From NCBI RefSeq assembly GCF_000024005.1, contig NC_013132.1:3342001-3406000 (forward strand): a stretch of DNA of 64,000 bases, in the 5' to 3' direction. Below, in pieces: positions 2,571 to 44,612 of the stretch. The position numbers and the translations under genes were made by a program. Positions within the stretch are counted from its first letter, which is position 1, and the number at the start of each line of letters is the position of its first letter. Below the pieces are notes generated by a model. The model worked only from the letters and a program-made list of their open reading frames with translations, was not told where the DNA came from and ran no database searches. The DNA is from Chitinophaga pinensis DSM 2588. Lineage in GTDB: Bacteria; Bacteroidota; Bacteroidia; Chitinophagales; Chitinophagaceae.

Positions 2571-2595
2571 AATTCTTAATTCTTAATTCTTAATT
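2571..2595. repeat. AATTCTT heptamer array (single arm)
   Basis: Three tandem AATTCTT heptamers followed by a degenerate copy, in the gap between the divergent methyltransferase and GH2 genes. It is the same low-complexity repeat family as at 16830-16916, 21353-21474 and 44442-44612, but no inverted partner is seen within this intergenic region. Confidence 0.7.
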
Positions 2596-16829: not shown

Positions 16830-16916
16830 AATTAGGAATTAGGAATTAAGAATTAGGAATTGAGGACAATTGCCATCAATTCCTAATTCTTAATTCCTAA
16901 TTCCTAATTCCTAATT
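16830..16916. repeat. Heptamer-built inverted repeat, probable two-way terminator
   Basis: The left arm (16830-16863) is made of AATTAGG/AATTAAG heptamers and its exact reverse complement is at 16876-16909, with one extra CCTAATT unit to 16916. The 12-base loop contains CAATTG. It fills the gap between the convergent TonB receptor (ends 16804) and beta-barrel gene (ends 16921), and a T-run (GTTTTT) follows on the plus strand, so a bidirectional terminator is plausible. Confidence 0.8.
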
Positions 16917-21352: not shown

Positions 21353-21474
21353 AGGAATTAAGAATTAAAAAATTAAGAATTATTTTTCCGGTAAACTATC
21401 ACGTTAATGAATTTTTATAGGATGCAATTGAAACAGCTCAATTCTTAATCCTTAATTTTTAATTCTTAATTCCT
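21353..21474. repeat. Heptamer inverted repeat pair (AATTAAG / CTTAATT)
   Basis: The left arm (21353-21382) and right arm (21439-21474) are built of AATTAAG-type heptamers in opposite orientation and are largely complementary, around a spacer of 56 bases. It separates the response regulator from the sulfatase, both on the plus strand. The right arm ends just before the sulfatase start and includes TATTTTTC, one mismatch from a -7 promoter box. Confidence 0.7.
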
Positions 21475-21487
21475 ATTTTTCTATCAC

Positions 21488-35885: not shown

Positions 35886-36731
35886 TTATTTTTTCCTCCA
35901 GTTCCGCCGGATTGAAATATTCCCACCCTCAGCTTTGTATGAAATACCGGTCTTAATAAGGTCCTGGTATTTACTGATATATTTCTGATAAATAGCGTCT
36001 GGTTGTTGCTGCTCATTAAGTGTCATTCCCTGATCGCTGATCACCAGTTCATGTAGATCGCTTTTAGCAGTGATCAGTTTATCGGCTACGAGATCGCTGA
36101 CAAGGTCATTGATCAGCTTTCTCTCCTCTTCAGCAGCAGCACGGTCTTTATCTGCCTGTGCTCTGTCTTTATCTGCCTGTTCTCTATCCTTATCTGCCTG
36201 CGCACGATCGAGGACGGCCTGTTGCCTGTCTTTTTCTGCCTGCTTTCTATCCTGATCCGCCTGGGCTCTGTCGCGATCTGCCTGGGCTTTATCTTTTAAT
36301 GATTGCTGGCGATCGAGTTCTGCCTGTTTTCTGTCCTGTAAGGCTTGTAGTCTGTCTTTATCGGCCTGTATGCGGTCCAGTTTCGCATGTTCCCTGTCTT
36401 TTGCTGCCTGTGCACGATCTTTCTCAGCCTGCTCGCGGTCTTTCTTTACCTGCTCCTTAATTTCATCGATCTGCTTTTGGTAGCTGCCCCATTGCTCCGC
36501 AGGAATTGTTTTGCCATCAACAGAGAAAGAGGTCATTTTACCGTCTATGAAGGTCATTTCATAGGTTTGACCATCCTTGTCAGTGCTGATGGTTTCTTCA
36601 TTGGTATTTGTATTCCTGTTGGTGTGCGTGCCATATATAGTTGGCTTTGGTTTCTTTTGTGCGTAAGCACTGACGCTGCAAATGAGTAAACCAGCCAGTA
36701 AAGTGTTACGCATGGTGTTGATCGCGTTCAT
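35886..36731 (-). CDS. Secreted heptad-repeat (DRxQAxx) protein, M56 partner candidate
   Basis: A 281-residue protein with a signal peptide (NTLLAGLLICSVSAYAQ), a small N-terminal beta domain (TYEMTFIDGKMTSFSVDGKTI) and residues 98-202 made of fifteen consecutive seven-residue units of the form D-R-x-Q-A-x-x (DREQAEK, DRIQADK, DRAQADQ and others). The repeat should form a long charged helix, possibly a coiled coil. A C-terminal domain follows (LINDLVSDLVADKLITAKSDLHELVISDQGMTLN). The same heptad array is in the tail of the adjacent M56 protein, so they may interact or arose by duplication. Function unknown. The DNA is correspondingly repetitive (21-base units). Confidence 0.75.
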   Translation of the reverse strand: MNAINTMRNTLLAGLLICSVSAYAQKKPKPTIYGTHTNRNTNTNEETISTDKDGQTYEMTFIDGKMTSFSVDGKTIPAEQWGSYQKQIDEIKEQVKKDREQAEKDRAQAAKDREHAKLDRIQADKDRLQALQDRKQAELDRQQSLKDKAQADRDRAQADQDRKQAEKDRQQAVLDRAQADKDREQADKDRAQADKDRAAAEEERKLINDLVSDLVADKLITAKSDLHELVISDQGMTLNEQQQPDAIYQKYISKYQDLIKTGISYKAEGGNISIRRNWRKK

Positions 36732-36774
36732 GTCTGATGGATTTAGTAATTGTTAATAATGTGCCGGTAGGTAT

Positions 36775-36866
36775 AGGCAATAAATTGCCTGTCTCAGCCG
36801 GTGACGGTGAAAAAATATTGTTAGTGTATAATGAATAGAAGATAGTGAGGGCAATAAACTGCCTGC
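36775..36866. repeat. Two copies of a small hairpin, GGCAATAAAYTGCCTG
   Basis: Near-identical 16-mers at 36776-36791 and 36850-36865, 74 bases apart, each an inverted repeat (AGGCAA-TAAA-TTGCCT in the first). They lie between the M56 gene and its downstream repeat-protein gene and could be regulator sites or RNA hairpins. Confidence 0.45.
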
Positions 36867-36941
36867 CGCGCAGTATGCGCAGTTGTTAAAAACTGAACTT
36901 TTAAATGTGAATGATCGGCCTGTGTGTTTAGGTGGCCTGTA

Positions 36942-38687
36942 TTACTGTGCTTTACCCTGATAACGGTTTACGTTATAGTTGCCGTTATAATGCGGCATAA
37001 GCAAAGCCTTTTTTTCTGCTTCATGTTTTGCCAGGGCCATTTCATGCACTGCACGTTCCTGATCAGCCTTTGAGCGGTCTATCAGCCCTAGTTGCCGGTC
37101 TTTCTCTGCCTGTGCTCTGTCACGGTCGGCTTGTTGTCTGTCTTTGTCTGCCTGTATGCGATCCAGTCTGGCCTGTTCCCTGTCTTTATCCGCCTGTAAG
37201 CGGTCGAGTACTGCCTGTTTCCTATCCCGGTCAGCCTGCAATTTGTCCATCATCGCCTGATGTCTGTCTCTCTCTGCCTGCAGCCTGTCTAATCTTACCT
37301 GTTCTTTCTGTTGTCTGTCAGCTTCTATCATATAACGCTGTGCCTGTACTTCGGGCGACGGGGCGGACATTTGTGCATCGCTTACAGGCGGTGCAGCAGA
37401 AGGTGACGGTGCGGTAGATGGCGTTGGTGCAGGAGATGCTGCTGAAACATGTCGCACTTCTACCTGGGGGGCGACTTTTACCGCCGGTTTATGATGGGTA
37501 ACGGTGACAATTGGTTCGTGTCGTGTCACTACGATTGCTGGTGGTGTTGGCACAACGGTATCCCGCGGCGGCTTTACAGGAAGTGCAAGAATTTCTTCGC
37601 CTTTGGCAAGTACATAAGGCGTATTTATTTTCATGCTGGTATGACGCCCCAGTTGCGTGATGGCAGCGGTGGATAATACCACACTTAACATCGCTATGCC
37701 TGTAAAAAAACAGATCTTTTCAGCTGTTCCCAGTGATTGATGCCGGTTGTTGATAATACGGCTGACTCTTTGCAATAACTGGTTTTTTCTGCCAGGAAAT
37801 GCGACCGCCGGGTATTGTGAAGAAAGCGTGTATTCCTTGAAACTGATCAGCGCTTCGATAAAGGTCTTTTTACTACCTGTTTGCTGCAGGGCGATATCGT
37901 CACAGCAATGTTCTCTTTCATCCCGTAAGAGCACAGAGATCCAGAGAAACCCGGGATTAAAAAAGAAGACCGTTTCACAACATACCTGTAACAGATTGAT
38001 GATGTAGTCATGCCGGCGGATATGTGCGAGTTCGTGTAATAATACGGCTTCAATCTGCTGGGCAGGAAGACCTGCCAATAAACCAGCCGGCATCAGTATA
38101 ACGGGCTTCAGATGCCCCGCCACTACCGGTACTTTTACAAAGGCAGATTCCAGCAGACGGACAGATTTCGTCACACCCAGCGCTTTGCAGAGCTGTTGTA
38201 AACGCTCCAGCCATTCTTCCGCTGCGGTATATACCTGCTGTTTTCTGGCATGACGCAGGTAACGCATTCCCTGTATCATTCTGAGGGAGCGGAAAGCGAA
38301 GAACAGCGCCCACAATATTACGAGCAGGTGTGCATTAGCAGAGATATGAGCGGCACTGCTGACCGCCAATGTTTTTACATGCACTGCGTCTAGCCGGAAG
38401 AGGGTAGAAGCGCCATGTCCGATACTGTCAGCCAGTGGTACCGACCTTTGTGATATACTGCCTGTCAGTTCCCGGAAGAAGGTGACCATACAGGCCAGCG
38501 CAAATGCGGCAAAATGTACTAACAGAATATTGTACCTCACGGCGGATGCCGCTTTGCTGCTTAGCTGTAAGAATATCACTGCCAGCAGCGCAATCAGCAT
38601 ACCCTGCCAGAGGGAATGCACCAGCATCCAGCTGAATGCCTGTAAAAGGCGTTCTCCAAGGGAGTGTATGTCGAGGTACAGATACAT
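36942..38687 (-). CDS. M56 (BlaR1/MecR1-like) membrane metallopeptidase with heptad-repeat tail
   Basis: A 581-residue protein. Residues about 1-340 carry four membrane helices and the zinc site HELAHIRRHD (H218, E219, H222), with RDEREHCCDD about 35 residues later, as in BlaR1-type sensors. After the last helix (EKICFFTGIAMLSVVLSTAAITQLG) comes a proline-rich linker (about 380-450) and then about eleven DRxQAxx heptads (about 452-545) like those of the neighbour. No penicillin-binding sensor domain is present, so a beta-lactam ligand is unlikely. By analogy it senses an envelope signal and cleaves the BlaI repressor. The start follows the BlaI stop by 14 bases. Confidence 0.85.
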   Translation of the reverse strand: MYLYLDIHSLGERLLQAFSWMLVHSLWQGMLIALLAVIFLQLSSKAASAVRYNILLVHFAAFALACMVTFFRELTGSISQRSVPLADSIGHGASTLFRLDAVHVKTLAVSSAAHISANAHLLVILWALFFAFRSLRMIQGMRYLRHARKQQVYTAAEEWLERLQQLCKALGVTKSVRLLESAFVKVPVVAGHLKPVILMPAGLLAGLPAQQIEAVLLHELAHIRRHDYIINLLQVCCETVFFFNPGFLWISVLLRDEREHCCDDIALQQTGSKKTFIEALISFKEYTLSSQYPAVAFPGRKNQLLQRVSRIINNRHQSLGTAEKICFFTGIAMLSVVLSTAAITQLGRHTSMKINTPYVLAKGEEILALPVKPPRDTVVPTPPAIVVTRHEPIVTVTHHKPAVKVAPQVEVRHVSAASPAPTPSTAPSPSAAPPVSDAQMSAPSPEVQAQRYMIEADRQQKEQVRLDRLQAERDRHQAMMDKLQADRDRKQAVLDRLQADKDREQARLDRIQADKDRQQADRDRAQAEKDRQLGLIDRSKADQERAVHEMALAKHEAEKKALLMPHYNGNYNVNRYQGKAQ

Positions 38688-38701: not shown

Positions 38702-39103
38702 CTATTTATCGTCCATTTTTTTCAGCAGCTCTTTTATCTTTTGCAGTTCTTCAGTGGAAGTCCTGTCGTTACCTAACAGGGCGACCATCAGATCGCTGGG
38801 AGAGCCGTTATACATAGTATCCATAAAGCGGCCGAGCATAGTACCCTTTACCTTATTTTCCTCCACAACAGCGCTGTAAACATGTTTCATGCTGCTTTCA
38901 TCACGGTCCAGCATTCCCTTCTCCTTCATTACCTGCATCAGTTTCAGCGTACTGGTATAGATAACGGCTTCTTTCTGCTCGTTCAGCTTATCATGCACAA
39001 AACGCACAGTAGAAGGGCCATACTGCCAGAGTACCTGTAGTACGTCCATTTCTGTTTTGGTAGGCACCATATCAGGAGTTGGATCTTTCTTAAATAAGCT
39101 CAT
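38702..39103 (-). CDS. BlaI/MecI-family transcriptional repressor
   Basis: A 133-residue winged-helix protein: PTKTEMDVLQVLWQYGPSTVRFVHDKLNEQKEAVIYTSTLKLMQVMKEKGMLDRDESSMKHVYSAVV is the typical BlaI DNA-binding domain, and the C-terminal helix (TSTEELQKIKELLKKM) fits the dimerisation part. A -7 promoter box ends five bases before the first ATG, which would make the mRNA almost leaderless; the internal ATG at 39070 (MVPTKTEMDVLQ) is closer to the usual family start. It should repress its own operon until cleaved through the M56 partner. No beta-lactamase gene is in the window. Confidence 0.92.
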   Translation of the reverse strand: MSLFKKDPTPDMVPTKTEMDVLQVLWQYGPSTVRFVHDKLNEQKEAVIYTSTLKLMQVMKEKGMLDRDESSMKHVYSAVVEENKVKGTMLGRFMDTMYNGSPSDLMVALLGNDRTSTEELQKIKELLKKMDDK

Positions 39104-39107
39104 GTTT

Positions 39108-39134
39108 CAAAGGTATGTATTAAAAACGTACGTT
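39108..39134 (-). promoter_or_regulatory. BlaI operon promoter with AACGTACGTT palindrome
   Basis: On the minus strand TACCTTTG (39108-39115) is an exact -7 box. A perfect 10-base palindrome AACGTACGTT (39125-39134) lies between the -7 and -33 positions, a good location for a repressor. BlaI proteins bind dyad operators at their own promoters; that this is the operator is inferred. Confidence 0.55.
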
Positions 39135-44335: not shown

Positions 44336-44441
44336 GTTTCGAGGGATTTGAATTCGGCTATTGCGGAATACGTTGCGGTCTTGTAGAAGTATATGATATG
44401 AAAGCGTGCTCATAGTTAGGTGTGGAATGTATAGGGAAAGG

Positions 44442-44612
44442 AATTAGCAATTAGGATTAGGAATTAGCAATTAGGAATTAGCAATTAGCAATTAGCAATT
44501 AGGAATTTCTTCTATTATTGACTCCATTGTAAACAATATTCAAAGACTTCCACCGCCGCAATAATCTCCGCTGCATTACAATTCTTAATTCTTAATTCCT
44601 AATTCCTAATTG
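44442..44612. repeat. Heptamer array pair (AATTAGC/AATTAGG and inverted AATTCTT/AATTCCT)
   Basis: The left arm (44442-44508) has about nine AATTAGG/AATTAGC heptamers, the longest array in the window; the right arm (44580-44612) has inverted AATTCTT/AATTCCT units reaching the stop of the VOC gene. About 70 bases of unrelated sequence lie between. It lies between two minus-strand genes and may act as a terminator or spacer. Confidence 0.7.

Follow-up and report, generated by a model that had tools for sequence, protein, structure and literature searches.

In the staphylococcal BlaR1/MecR1-BlaI/MecI systems (structure 8exp; PMC9834060), an M56 metalloprotease core with an HExxH...E motif adjoins a gene for a BlaI-type repressor, and according to PMC9834060 the sensors of BlaR1 and MecR1 lie within the same chain. 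The operon described here resembles these systems in core and repressor, and differs from them in that its receptor has no penicillin-binding sensor domain, its sensor module appears as a separate secreted protein and no resistance gene lies beside it among the proteins scanned. A second group for comparison is formed by fused M56 receptors of Bacteroidota (among them two in Chitinophaga and one each in Dyadobacter and a Saprospiraceae metagenome-assembled genome) that share the M56 core, two further domains, called N and C here, and usually a BlaI partner, with the difference that the domains are covalently attached and the repeat array, where seen, lies between N and C. Among the open-licence PubMed Central papers searched we found none on this arrangement or on the function of Bacteroidota M56/BlaI receptors; in PMC12915585 an M56 name occurs in a table.

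The operon and its secreted repeat protein

The window is a stretch of 64,000 nucleotides from Chitinophaga pinensis DSM 2588 (NC_013132.1, positions 3,342,001 to 3,406,000). The secreted repeat protein is abbreviated RP, and the operon and its features, all on the minus strand, are:

39108..39134, minus strand: operator-promoter of the operon, palindrome AACGTACGTT then TACCTTTG, situated upstream of the BlaI gene both in the window and in relatives; putative BlaI site
38702..39103, minus strand: BlaI/MecI-type repressor, 133 aa (Penicillinase_R, PF03965, E 7.8e-22)
36942..38687, minus strand: M56 BlaR1-like membrane metalloprotease receptor, 581 aa (Peptidase_M56, PF05569, E 4.7e-29)
38022..38036, minus strand: HELAH zinc-protease motif of M56, residues 218-222, with EREHCCDD downstream (from the sequence)
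37059..37289, minus strand: heptad array of the M56 tail, residues 467-543, about 11 units of D/R flavour; proposed docking zipper (unit search and shuffles)
35886..36731, minus strand: RP, 281 aa, no Pfam family (sequence and Pfam)
36660..36731, minus strand: RP signal peptide, about residues 1-24, ending in AYA before Q (read from the sequence)
36501..36629, minus strand: RP N-domain, beta-meander, residues 35-77 (AlphaFold2 model), also found fused in other M56 tails
36126..36440, minus strand: RP heptad array, residues 98-202, 15 units, within a 139-residue helix, residues 78-216 (unit search, AlphaFold2)
35904..36083, minus strand: RP C-domain, alpha+beta, residues 217-276 (AlphaFold2 model), also found fused in other M56 tails

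The PF03965 repressor gene precedes the M56 gene, whose product finds the S. aureus BlaR1 structure 8exp by phmmer (E 5.9e-8) and scores 30-95 bits against the NCBIfam BlaR1/MecR1 models, far under their cut-offs of 400 and 1200. The HExAH...ExxxCCDD pattern is present in all 54 M56 rows longer than 400 aa whose neighbour matches an RP domain. In the M56 protein Pfam detects no penicillin-binding, transpeptidase or beta-lactamase family, nor does it find a beta-lactamase family among the 16 window proteins scanned at about 25.7-46.1 kb, a region that also holds ORFs outside the scan; both absences had been claimed in a preliminary description of this DNA and stand within that scope. Its proposal that the trigger is not an antibiotic is open to doubt because in three Mucilaginibacter loci that were read (L064, L073, L145) a serine hydrolase gene sits between M56 and RP, and the one tested belongs to the PF00144 Beta-lactamase family.

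The about eleven DRxQAxx heptads reported for the M56 protein and fifteen for the product of the next gene are both present. Units of the form D[RK]x[QH][AS] start at residues 467-523 of M56 without a break (9 units), flanked by degenerate units to about residue 543, and at residues 98-189 of RP (14 units), followed by one degenerate unit to residue 202. Spacing is strictly seven residues in both proteins. The longest in-register runs are 9 in M56 and 14 in RP, compared with maxima of 1 and 2 in 5000 composition-preserving shuffles, and across all six frames the whole window holds no other run of at least three units of this kind. At the DNA level TRF finds periods of 21, 42 and 63, in agreement with the 21-base repeats described before, while the similarity claimed between the two genes holds loosely, the longest exact match between their array DNA being 17 bp.

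AlphaFold2 models RP with a single 139-residue helix (pTM 0.49 with an alignment, 0.38 without), which for RP is consistent with the rigid helix of the preliminary description. No lipobox is seen in the signal peptide on reading the sequence. Pfam searches of 58 RPs yield no family common to two members, Foldseek of RP against the PDB yields nothing at E<=0.001, a search to which small domains on a long helix are poorly suited, and a C-domain profile against PDB sequences gives a best E of 0.53, which is not significant. PADLOC returns only a weak match of the coil (E 0.0043).

Long polar helices occur widely in the periplasm, and RP might be a separate envelope protein with no tie to the receptor beyond the shared operon, its heptads being generic TolA-like periplasm-spanning helices with no docking role. 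Both proteins do resemble TolA-type helical proteins in having a long polar helix, and both match the TolA model TIGR02794 weakly, at 28 bits for RP and 20.2 bits for M56, below the cut-off of 59.45. We consider this explanation improbable, since the domains of RP are elsewhere the receptor's own fused domains and the type of its repeats covaries with the receptor, receptor by receptor, as described below.

Fused and putatively split receptors

RP has 396 homologues at E<=0.001 among 7999 candidates scored. HMMs of the N- and C-domains were built from RPs and matched against fused M56 tails, and both find their counterparts within the tails of other M56 receptors; the C-domain also matches a fused M56 paralogue in the same genome (L047, E 8.8e-17). 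By this profile homology, the two domains of RP are the periplasmic domains that are fused in other M56 receptors.

The two forms follow a neighbour rule. M56 loci were counted after removal of 11 duplicate loci and of 8 rows whose ORF has at most 400 aa or that have at most 1.5 kb downstream (L068, L069, two pieces of L078, L086, L110, L139, L176), leaving 123. A heptad-tailed M56 protein without fused domains is found in 49 of these, with an RP gene downstream in every one and a BlaI gene immediately upstream on the same strand in every one. The RP is whole in 48, with both domains in one frame, and cut by inserted DNA in one (L143), where just its start remains. Another 47 of the 123 loci encode a fused-domain M56 protein without a D/N array, and none of them has an RP. 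The preliminary description had made its idea of a shared function depend in part on this adjacency, which is found in all 49 sampled loci of array-tailed, unfused M56. One locus, L177, counts against docking: it has an RP next to an M56 tail that is poorly repeated.

Sixteen fused receptors combine a lag-7 array with both domains, and in 15 of them the array peaks between N and C. The fused Saprospiraceae protein (L100) reads M56-N-20 heptads-C. Split receptors consequently bear an additional array on their M56 half.

Flavour matching between receptor and partner

Repeats come in flavours, and the flavours of the two partners agree. Pairs were compared in the 49 array+RP loci, minus L143 with its cut RP and plus L068, a row outside the locus count whose RP matches. 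None of these 49 intact pairs shows an N/D mismatch. The fraction of R at position 2 correlates between M56 and RP (rho 0.82, n = 48), with R/Q majority mismatches in 2 of 48 (L074, L150), and a third flavour, QR, is common to both partners in L092. Where a tail carries a D block and an N block, one D-type and one N-type RP are present in 9 of 10 cases, each nearly pure for its flavour. The exception is L078, whose M56 frame is interrupted (two open frames, and hence outside the counts of 49 and 123): in its tail about 7 N units are followed by about 7 D units, and the sole RP on its 4.3-kb contig is D-type. Across the sampled sequences, repeat type thus agrees nearly always, also where one receptor has two partners.

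Flavour follows lineage largely, with DR in Chitinophagaceae and DQ in most Mucilaginibacter. The 8 N-type RPs in the RP tree form one clade, while the M56 tree shows 6 changes of the N trait. Independent N-trait contrasts number 6 on all branches and 2 on strongly supported branches, both concordant and too few for significance; phylogenetic independence of the match is only suggested.

The flavour match, including two-flavour receptors with two partners, favours direct co-assembly of the two proteins, as does the neighbour rule; the co-assembly proposed earlier is supported to this extent, and L078, which breaks the flavour rule, lowers our confidence both in the docking reading and in the address code discussed at the end. 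The heptad arrays also lack a Leu/Ile core, and because of this each might be a lone, non-pairing helix. Alternatively, the helices may bind not each other but a third partner common to both, be it peptidoglycan, a lipid or a protein of the outer membrane, with flavour following that partner. Polar, Ala/Gln-rich heptads could bind a polymer, the tracking of lineage by flavour would fit, and the N units of L078 without an N-type RP need no partner per flavour. Such a third partner is nevertheless unlikely in our view: two-block tails with two near-pure RPs (9 of 10) would require two separate ones, and L164, which has no D block, has no D-type RP either.

The match could in principle be a by-product of DNA, copied between adjacent genes by recombination or gene conversion and of no joint function. 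The genes are adjacent, both have 21-bp periods, and same-locus DNA matches are somewhat longer than average: a mean of 21% of other loci do equally well or better, where 50% is expected without an excess. Against this, the longest exact match within a locus has a median of 17 bp and a maximum of 29 (49 pairs), and in only 18% of cases does the own-locus match equal or exceed those of all other loci in the row. Codon identity is close within and between loci (Ala 0.304 and 0.261, Gln 0.631 and 0.599, Asp 0.564 and 0.518, Arg 0.250 and 0.208), less so for Asn (0.619 and 0.516), and residue classes stay matched regardless. Copying without joint function is therefore very improbable. Recent gene conversion is disfavoured as the cause and appears unlikely, as long identical tracts are not seen; a mild same-locus excess in DNA and codons remains, which could come from shared codon use, flavour or old copying, and old copying followed by selection could also have produced the array match.

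Promoter element and proposed mechanism

The operon is preceded by an operator palindrome, the likely binding site of BlaI, and by TACCTTTG, which we take to resemble the Bacteroidota -7 box TAnnTTTG. The 27-mer of palindrome and promoter is the sole copy in the 9.1-Mb genome at <=3 mismatches, and the exact 13-mer AACGTACGTTTTT is also unique; neither search reveals further BlaI targets in this genome, although other promoter layouts could be missed by them. The element occurs in 35 of 149 genomes of the genus Mucilaginibacter, as a single copy in each; in all 34 genomes compared it is on the same strand as the M56 match, at a distance of 397-619 bases. AACGTACGTT stands upstream of 51 of 52 split loci and of none of 49 fused loci, 39 of which carry the palindrome TTCGTACGAA. 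Two loci (L114, L126) have the same operator palindrome and neither array nor RP. BlaI thus appears to control this operon only, and the single-copy promoter element suggests a closed loop with RP as its product.

It can be read directly from the sequences that free and fused modules are homologous, that the neighbour rule holds, that flavours match with some exceptions and that the promoter element is single-copy. Building on these observations, we consider it probable that the locus encodes a BlaR1-like receptor split in two, with a sensor that docks by means of helices with matching repeats, the shared seven-residue repeat probably being the zipper that joins the halves. The M56 protease would sit in the inner membrane, its C-terminal end forming a long polar heptad helix in the periplasm, while the sensor module of N-domain, heptad helix and C-domain would be supplied as the separate secreted RP and would dock on the tail through helices of the same flavour. 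The docked state would govern how the cytoplasmic HExxH protease acts on the BlaI repressor, presumably by cleavage. Because BlaI appears to control only this operon, activation of the receptor would yield more RP and close the loop. In the simplest version, the receptor would be silenced when free RP docks on it and become active again once RP is occupied or removed by an envelope signal.

This mode of working resembles that of E. coli CpxA-CpxP, in which, according to PMC4160245, the membrane sensor of unstressed cells is kept off by an accessory protein that binds it from the periplasm. The likeness is one of function under the favoured model, and CpxA is a histidine kinase, unlike the M56 receptor. 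We know of no matched repeat helices in the CpxA-CpxP system.

More tentatively, and with somewhat more doubt than belief, the heptads may act as an address code: the tail would be a rod of single-flavour slots (D, N, QR), each recruiting only a sensor of the same flavour, so that one protease could host several exchangeable sensors and the closed loop would measure its own free sensor.

A detachable sensor with matched repeats, if true, would show a fused receptor domain splitting off and re-attaching non-covalently, and a receptor gaining a second input by adding a repeat block. It would also provide natural helix pairs of differing specificity, and a testable handle on the M56/BlaI receptors of Bacteroidota; six M56 matches occur in this genome alone.

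Shared heptad arrays in an M56 receptor and a putative secreted protein

The operon lies on the minus strand of the window, in a genome of one contig (9,127,347 bases), and consists of a promoter element and three genes.

39108-39134, minus: AACGTACGTTTTTAATACATACCTTTG, putative 27-bp operator-promoter upstream of BlaI
39103-38702, minus: BlaI/MecI-type repressor
38687-36942, minus: M56, BlaR1-like metalloprotease, 581 aa (PF05569, E 4.7e-29)
36731-35886, minus: RP, putative secreted repeat protein, 281 aa, no Pfam family

M56 matches the sequence of the S. aureus BlaR1 structure 8exp with an E-value of 5.9e-8. Pfam searches assigned no family to RP and none common to two members among 58 RP homologues. 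Both proteins carry DRxQAxx units in strict 7-residue register, at residues 467-543 of M56 and 98-202 of RP. This bears out the preliminary description, with longest in-register runs of 9 and 14 units against at most 1 and 2 in 5000 shuffles of each sequence. Across 49 receptor-RP pairs, searched with a unit pattern demanding D or N at position 1 and Q at position 4, position 2 is mainly Q or R when the unit is of D type and Q, E, A or R when it is of N type. Alanine fills position 5 in 96-97% of D-type and 60-72% of N-type units, and most units have R, K or L at position 7. The AlphaFold2 model of RP (alignment of 58 homologues, mean pLDDT 88.7, pTM 0.49) goes from a beta-meander (residues 35-71) through a single helix spanning 78-216 to an alpha+beta C-domain at 228-276, in keeping with the earlier suggestion that the repeats form a rigid helix. 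At 0.15 nm per residue, the 139 residues of the predicted helix would extend over about 21 nm. Tandem heptanucleotide DNA repeats of the AATTCCT/AATTAGG type at window positions 2571-2595, 16830-16916, 21440-21480 and 44439-44611 have no relation to the protein heptads.

Split and fused receptors

N- and C-domains were excised from 120 RP homologues, and HMMs built from 120 (N) and 119 (C) rows were scanned over M56 neighbourhoods comprising 20 regions, 80 loci (the best 80 of 389 relatives) and 40 further regions. Dropping 11 duplicates left 131 M56 rows, of which 123 had an ORF >400 aa and >1.5 kb downstream; since selection was by resemblance to this branch's M56 proteins, these rows are not representative of all M56 proteins. 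With an array defined as at least 5 D- or N-type units, an array-tailed unfused M56 always stood beside an RP-domain gene, as the neighbour rule drawn from the preliminary description would have it: 49 of the 123 rows combine array and downstream RP, and none has an array without fused domain or RP. A further 47 rows carry fused N- and/or C-domains with neither array nor RP, and 21 have none of the three. Two rows each have an RP and no D/N array (L092, L177), fused domains with a C-domain-bearing neighbour and no array (L099, L130), or fused domains plus an array (L100, L108). A few of these 21 may be fused receptors that the scan missed, as L088 and L095 end in a sub-threshold C-domain-like stretch. 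Both RP domains share one frame in 48 of the 49 array-RP loci; in the exception, L143 (3740-10311), RP breaks off after its first ~35 residues and is followed by long unrelated genes on the opposite strand, which resemble an inserted island.

A test of 7-residue periodicity that ignores flavour (49-residue windows, cut 0.35, shuffled maximum 0.22) divided the same 123 rows into 50 unfused with RP and array, 22 fused with array and without RP, 27 fused with neither, 19 with none of the three, two unfused with array and without RP (L088, L095), two fused with RP and no array, and one unfused with RP and no array. The array peak is centered between N and C in 15 of the 16 fused receptors in which an array and both domains were detected, the exception being the Pro/Ala-rich L175. 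The fused form therefore reads membrane-N-array-C and the split form membrane-array plus a secreted N-array-C. Split receptors carry an extra array on the M56 half where the covalent link is absent, the pattern expected of a docking zipper. No description of a split M56/BlaI receptor with a repeat partner was found in the open-licence literature searched.

Scanning with the C-domain profile yielded 34 matches across 15 genomes, of which 19 fall in RP-locus frames, 12 in frames of at least 522 aa and three in other frames of one genome, G937 (193, 378 and 209 aa). Four matches fall within one 787-aa open frame of another genome (G879:C113:1528-2436), so some proteins seem to have the C-domain in tandem copies. 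The own-genome M56 paralogue L001 has a 14-residue-like tail repeat, NVDWxKxNxEVxxAMK, ahead of a C-domain-like end.

Heptad flavour in the two partners

Flavor and DNA comparisons used 49 pairs, namely the 49 array-RP loci with L068 in place of the truncated L143. Nine intact receptors whose contig continues downstream (L063, L070, L072, L140, L146, L150, L151, L154, L157) have a D block, closer to the membrane, followed by an N block, and all nine are accompanied by one D-type and one N-type RP. The N-type RPs of L070 and L072 are each split over two open frames, and isolated off-type units are found in L150 (tail or RP) and in L151 (N-type RP). L164 pairs an N block alone with an N-type RP alone, and in the other 39 pairs tail and RP each have <3 N units. 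N/D mismatches number 0/49, and mismatches in the R-versus-Q majority 2/48 (L074, L150). Outside this count, L092 has QR-x-EA heptads in both partners, and the contig of L069, with a two-block tail, ends downstream. The one exception to the rule, and the tenth two-block case, is L078 (463-2963), where the tail has ~7 N then 7 D units but the sole RP on the 4.3-kb contig is D-type; its M56 is divided between open frames of 221 and 321 aa, and the gene after the RP is unrelated.

Correlation between partners (rho) is 0.87 for the share of N units (n=49), 0.82 for the share of R at position 2 (n=48) and 0.57 for block length (58 blocks; means 8.1 units in M56 and 13.5 in RP). Among D-only loci, the cosine of partner composition over positions 2, 3, 6 and 7 is 0.907 within vs 0.707 between Mucilaginibacter-type loci (n=22) and 0.891 vs 0.840 for Chitinophagaceae (n=15), with a permutation p of 0.0002 each, kinship ignored. 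A quick tree built from 55 M56 cores requires at least 6 N-trait changes among tails, and likewise 6 among RPs because the labels agree in 49/49 rows. Independent N-trait contrasts number 6 on all branches and 2 on strongly supported ones, so a sign test is unable to reach significance; for R versus Q, 4 contrasts on supported branches comprise 2-3 concordant, 0 opposite and 1-2 unchanged. A quick tree of RP domains places its 8 N-type RPs (all but those of L070 and L072) in one clade (support 99) with one N/D change. A single origin of N-type RP, with RP and receptor block later lost together, would fit this. Transfer would fit as an alternative account, since Chitinophaga rows are interspersed with those of Mucilaginibacter, at forks of weak support.

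Exact DNA matches between partner arrays are short: the longest per pair has a median of 17 bp and never exceeds 29, and in 18% of the 49 pairs the same-locus match is at least as long as that with any other locus of the row. Codon identity within vs between loci is 0.304/0.261 for Ala, 0.631/0.599 for Gln, 0.564/0.518 for Asp, 0.619/0.516 for Asn and 0.250/0.208 for Arg. Given these match lengths and codon identities, recent gene conversion between partner arrays is unlikely. On average 21% of other loci match equally long or longer, a mild same-locus excess that shared codon use could cause, as could old copying. The arrays may have an old common origin.

Operon control and a possible mechanism

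The element AACGTACGTTTTTAATACATACCTTTG occurs once in its own genome at up to 3 mismatches, and its 13-mer AACGTACGTTTTT is likewise unique. Of 149 genomes of Mucilaginibacter (the genus of G814), 35 carry a single copy and the other 114 lack it; 34 of these 35 belong to the 35 genomes with a close M56 match, and in 34/34 the element lies 397-619 bases upstream of that match on the same strand. G894 has M56 and a variant site, and in G913 the site is followed by a BlaI gene and the beginning of an M56 gene. From this copy number and placement, BlaI looks like a putative private regulator of its own operon, with RP, at the window locus, the sole product that does not belong to the signalling chain. 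The palindrome AACGTACGTT stands upstream of 51/52 split loci (exception L063) and 0/49 fused loci, 39/49 of which (such as L048 and L079) have TTCGTACGAA instead, so the two classes may be insulated from each other at the DNA level. AACGTACGTT is also present at L069, L114 and L126, which have neither RP nor fused domains, and at the cut-off L086.

In five Mucilaginibacter loci (L064, L073, L077, L145, L147) RP lies about 1.7 kb past M56. A ~511-aa serine hydrolase intervenes in L064 (PF00144, E 4.9e-57), L073 and L145, and such a gene is inferred from spacing alone in L077 and L147. The Pedobacter locus L126 (4456-7487) has an M56 with the split-type palindrome and without heptad array or RP; a similar-looking, serine-hydrolase-like gene directly follows it. 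Serine hydrolases beside some M56 genes make a signal tied to cell wall or antibiotic possible. In B. licheniformis, BlaI is acted on by a peptidoglycan fragment (PMC3305447).

S. aureus BlaR1 is described in PMC9834060 as a cytoplasm-facing gluzincin protease governed by an extracellular sensor domain. We propose that RP would dock on the M56 tail via helices of like flavour and that docked RP would act as a removable sensor, holding the protease quiet until a signal engages RP. This favored role would be comparable to the shut-off of CpxA by CpxP (PMC4160245). Freshly made RP would then reset the loop.
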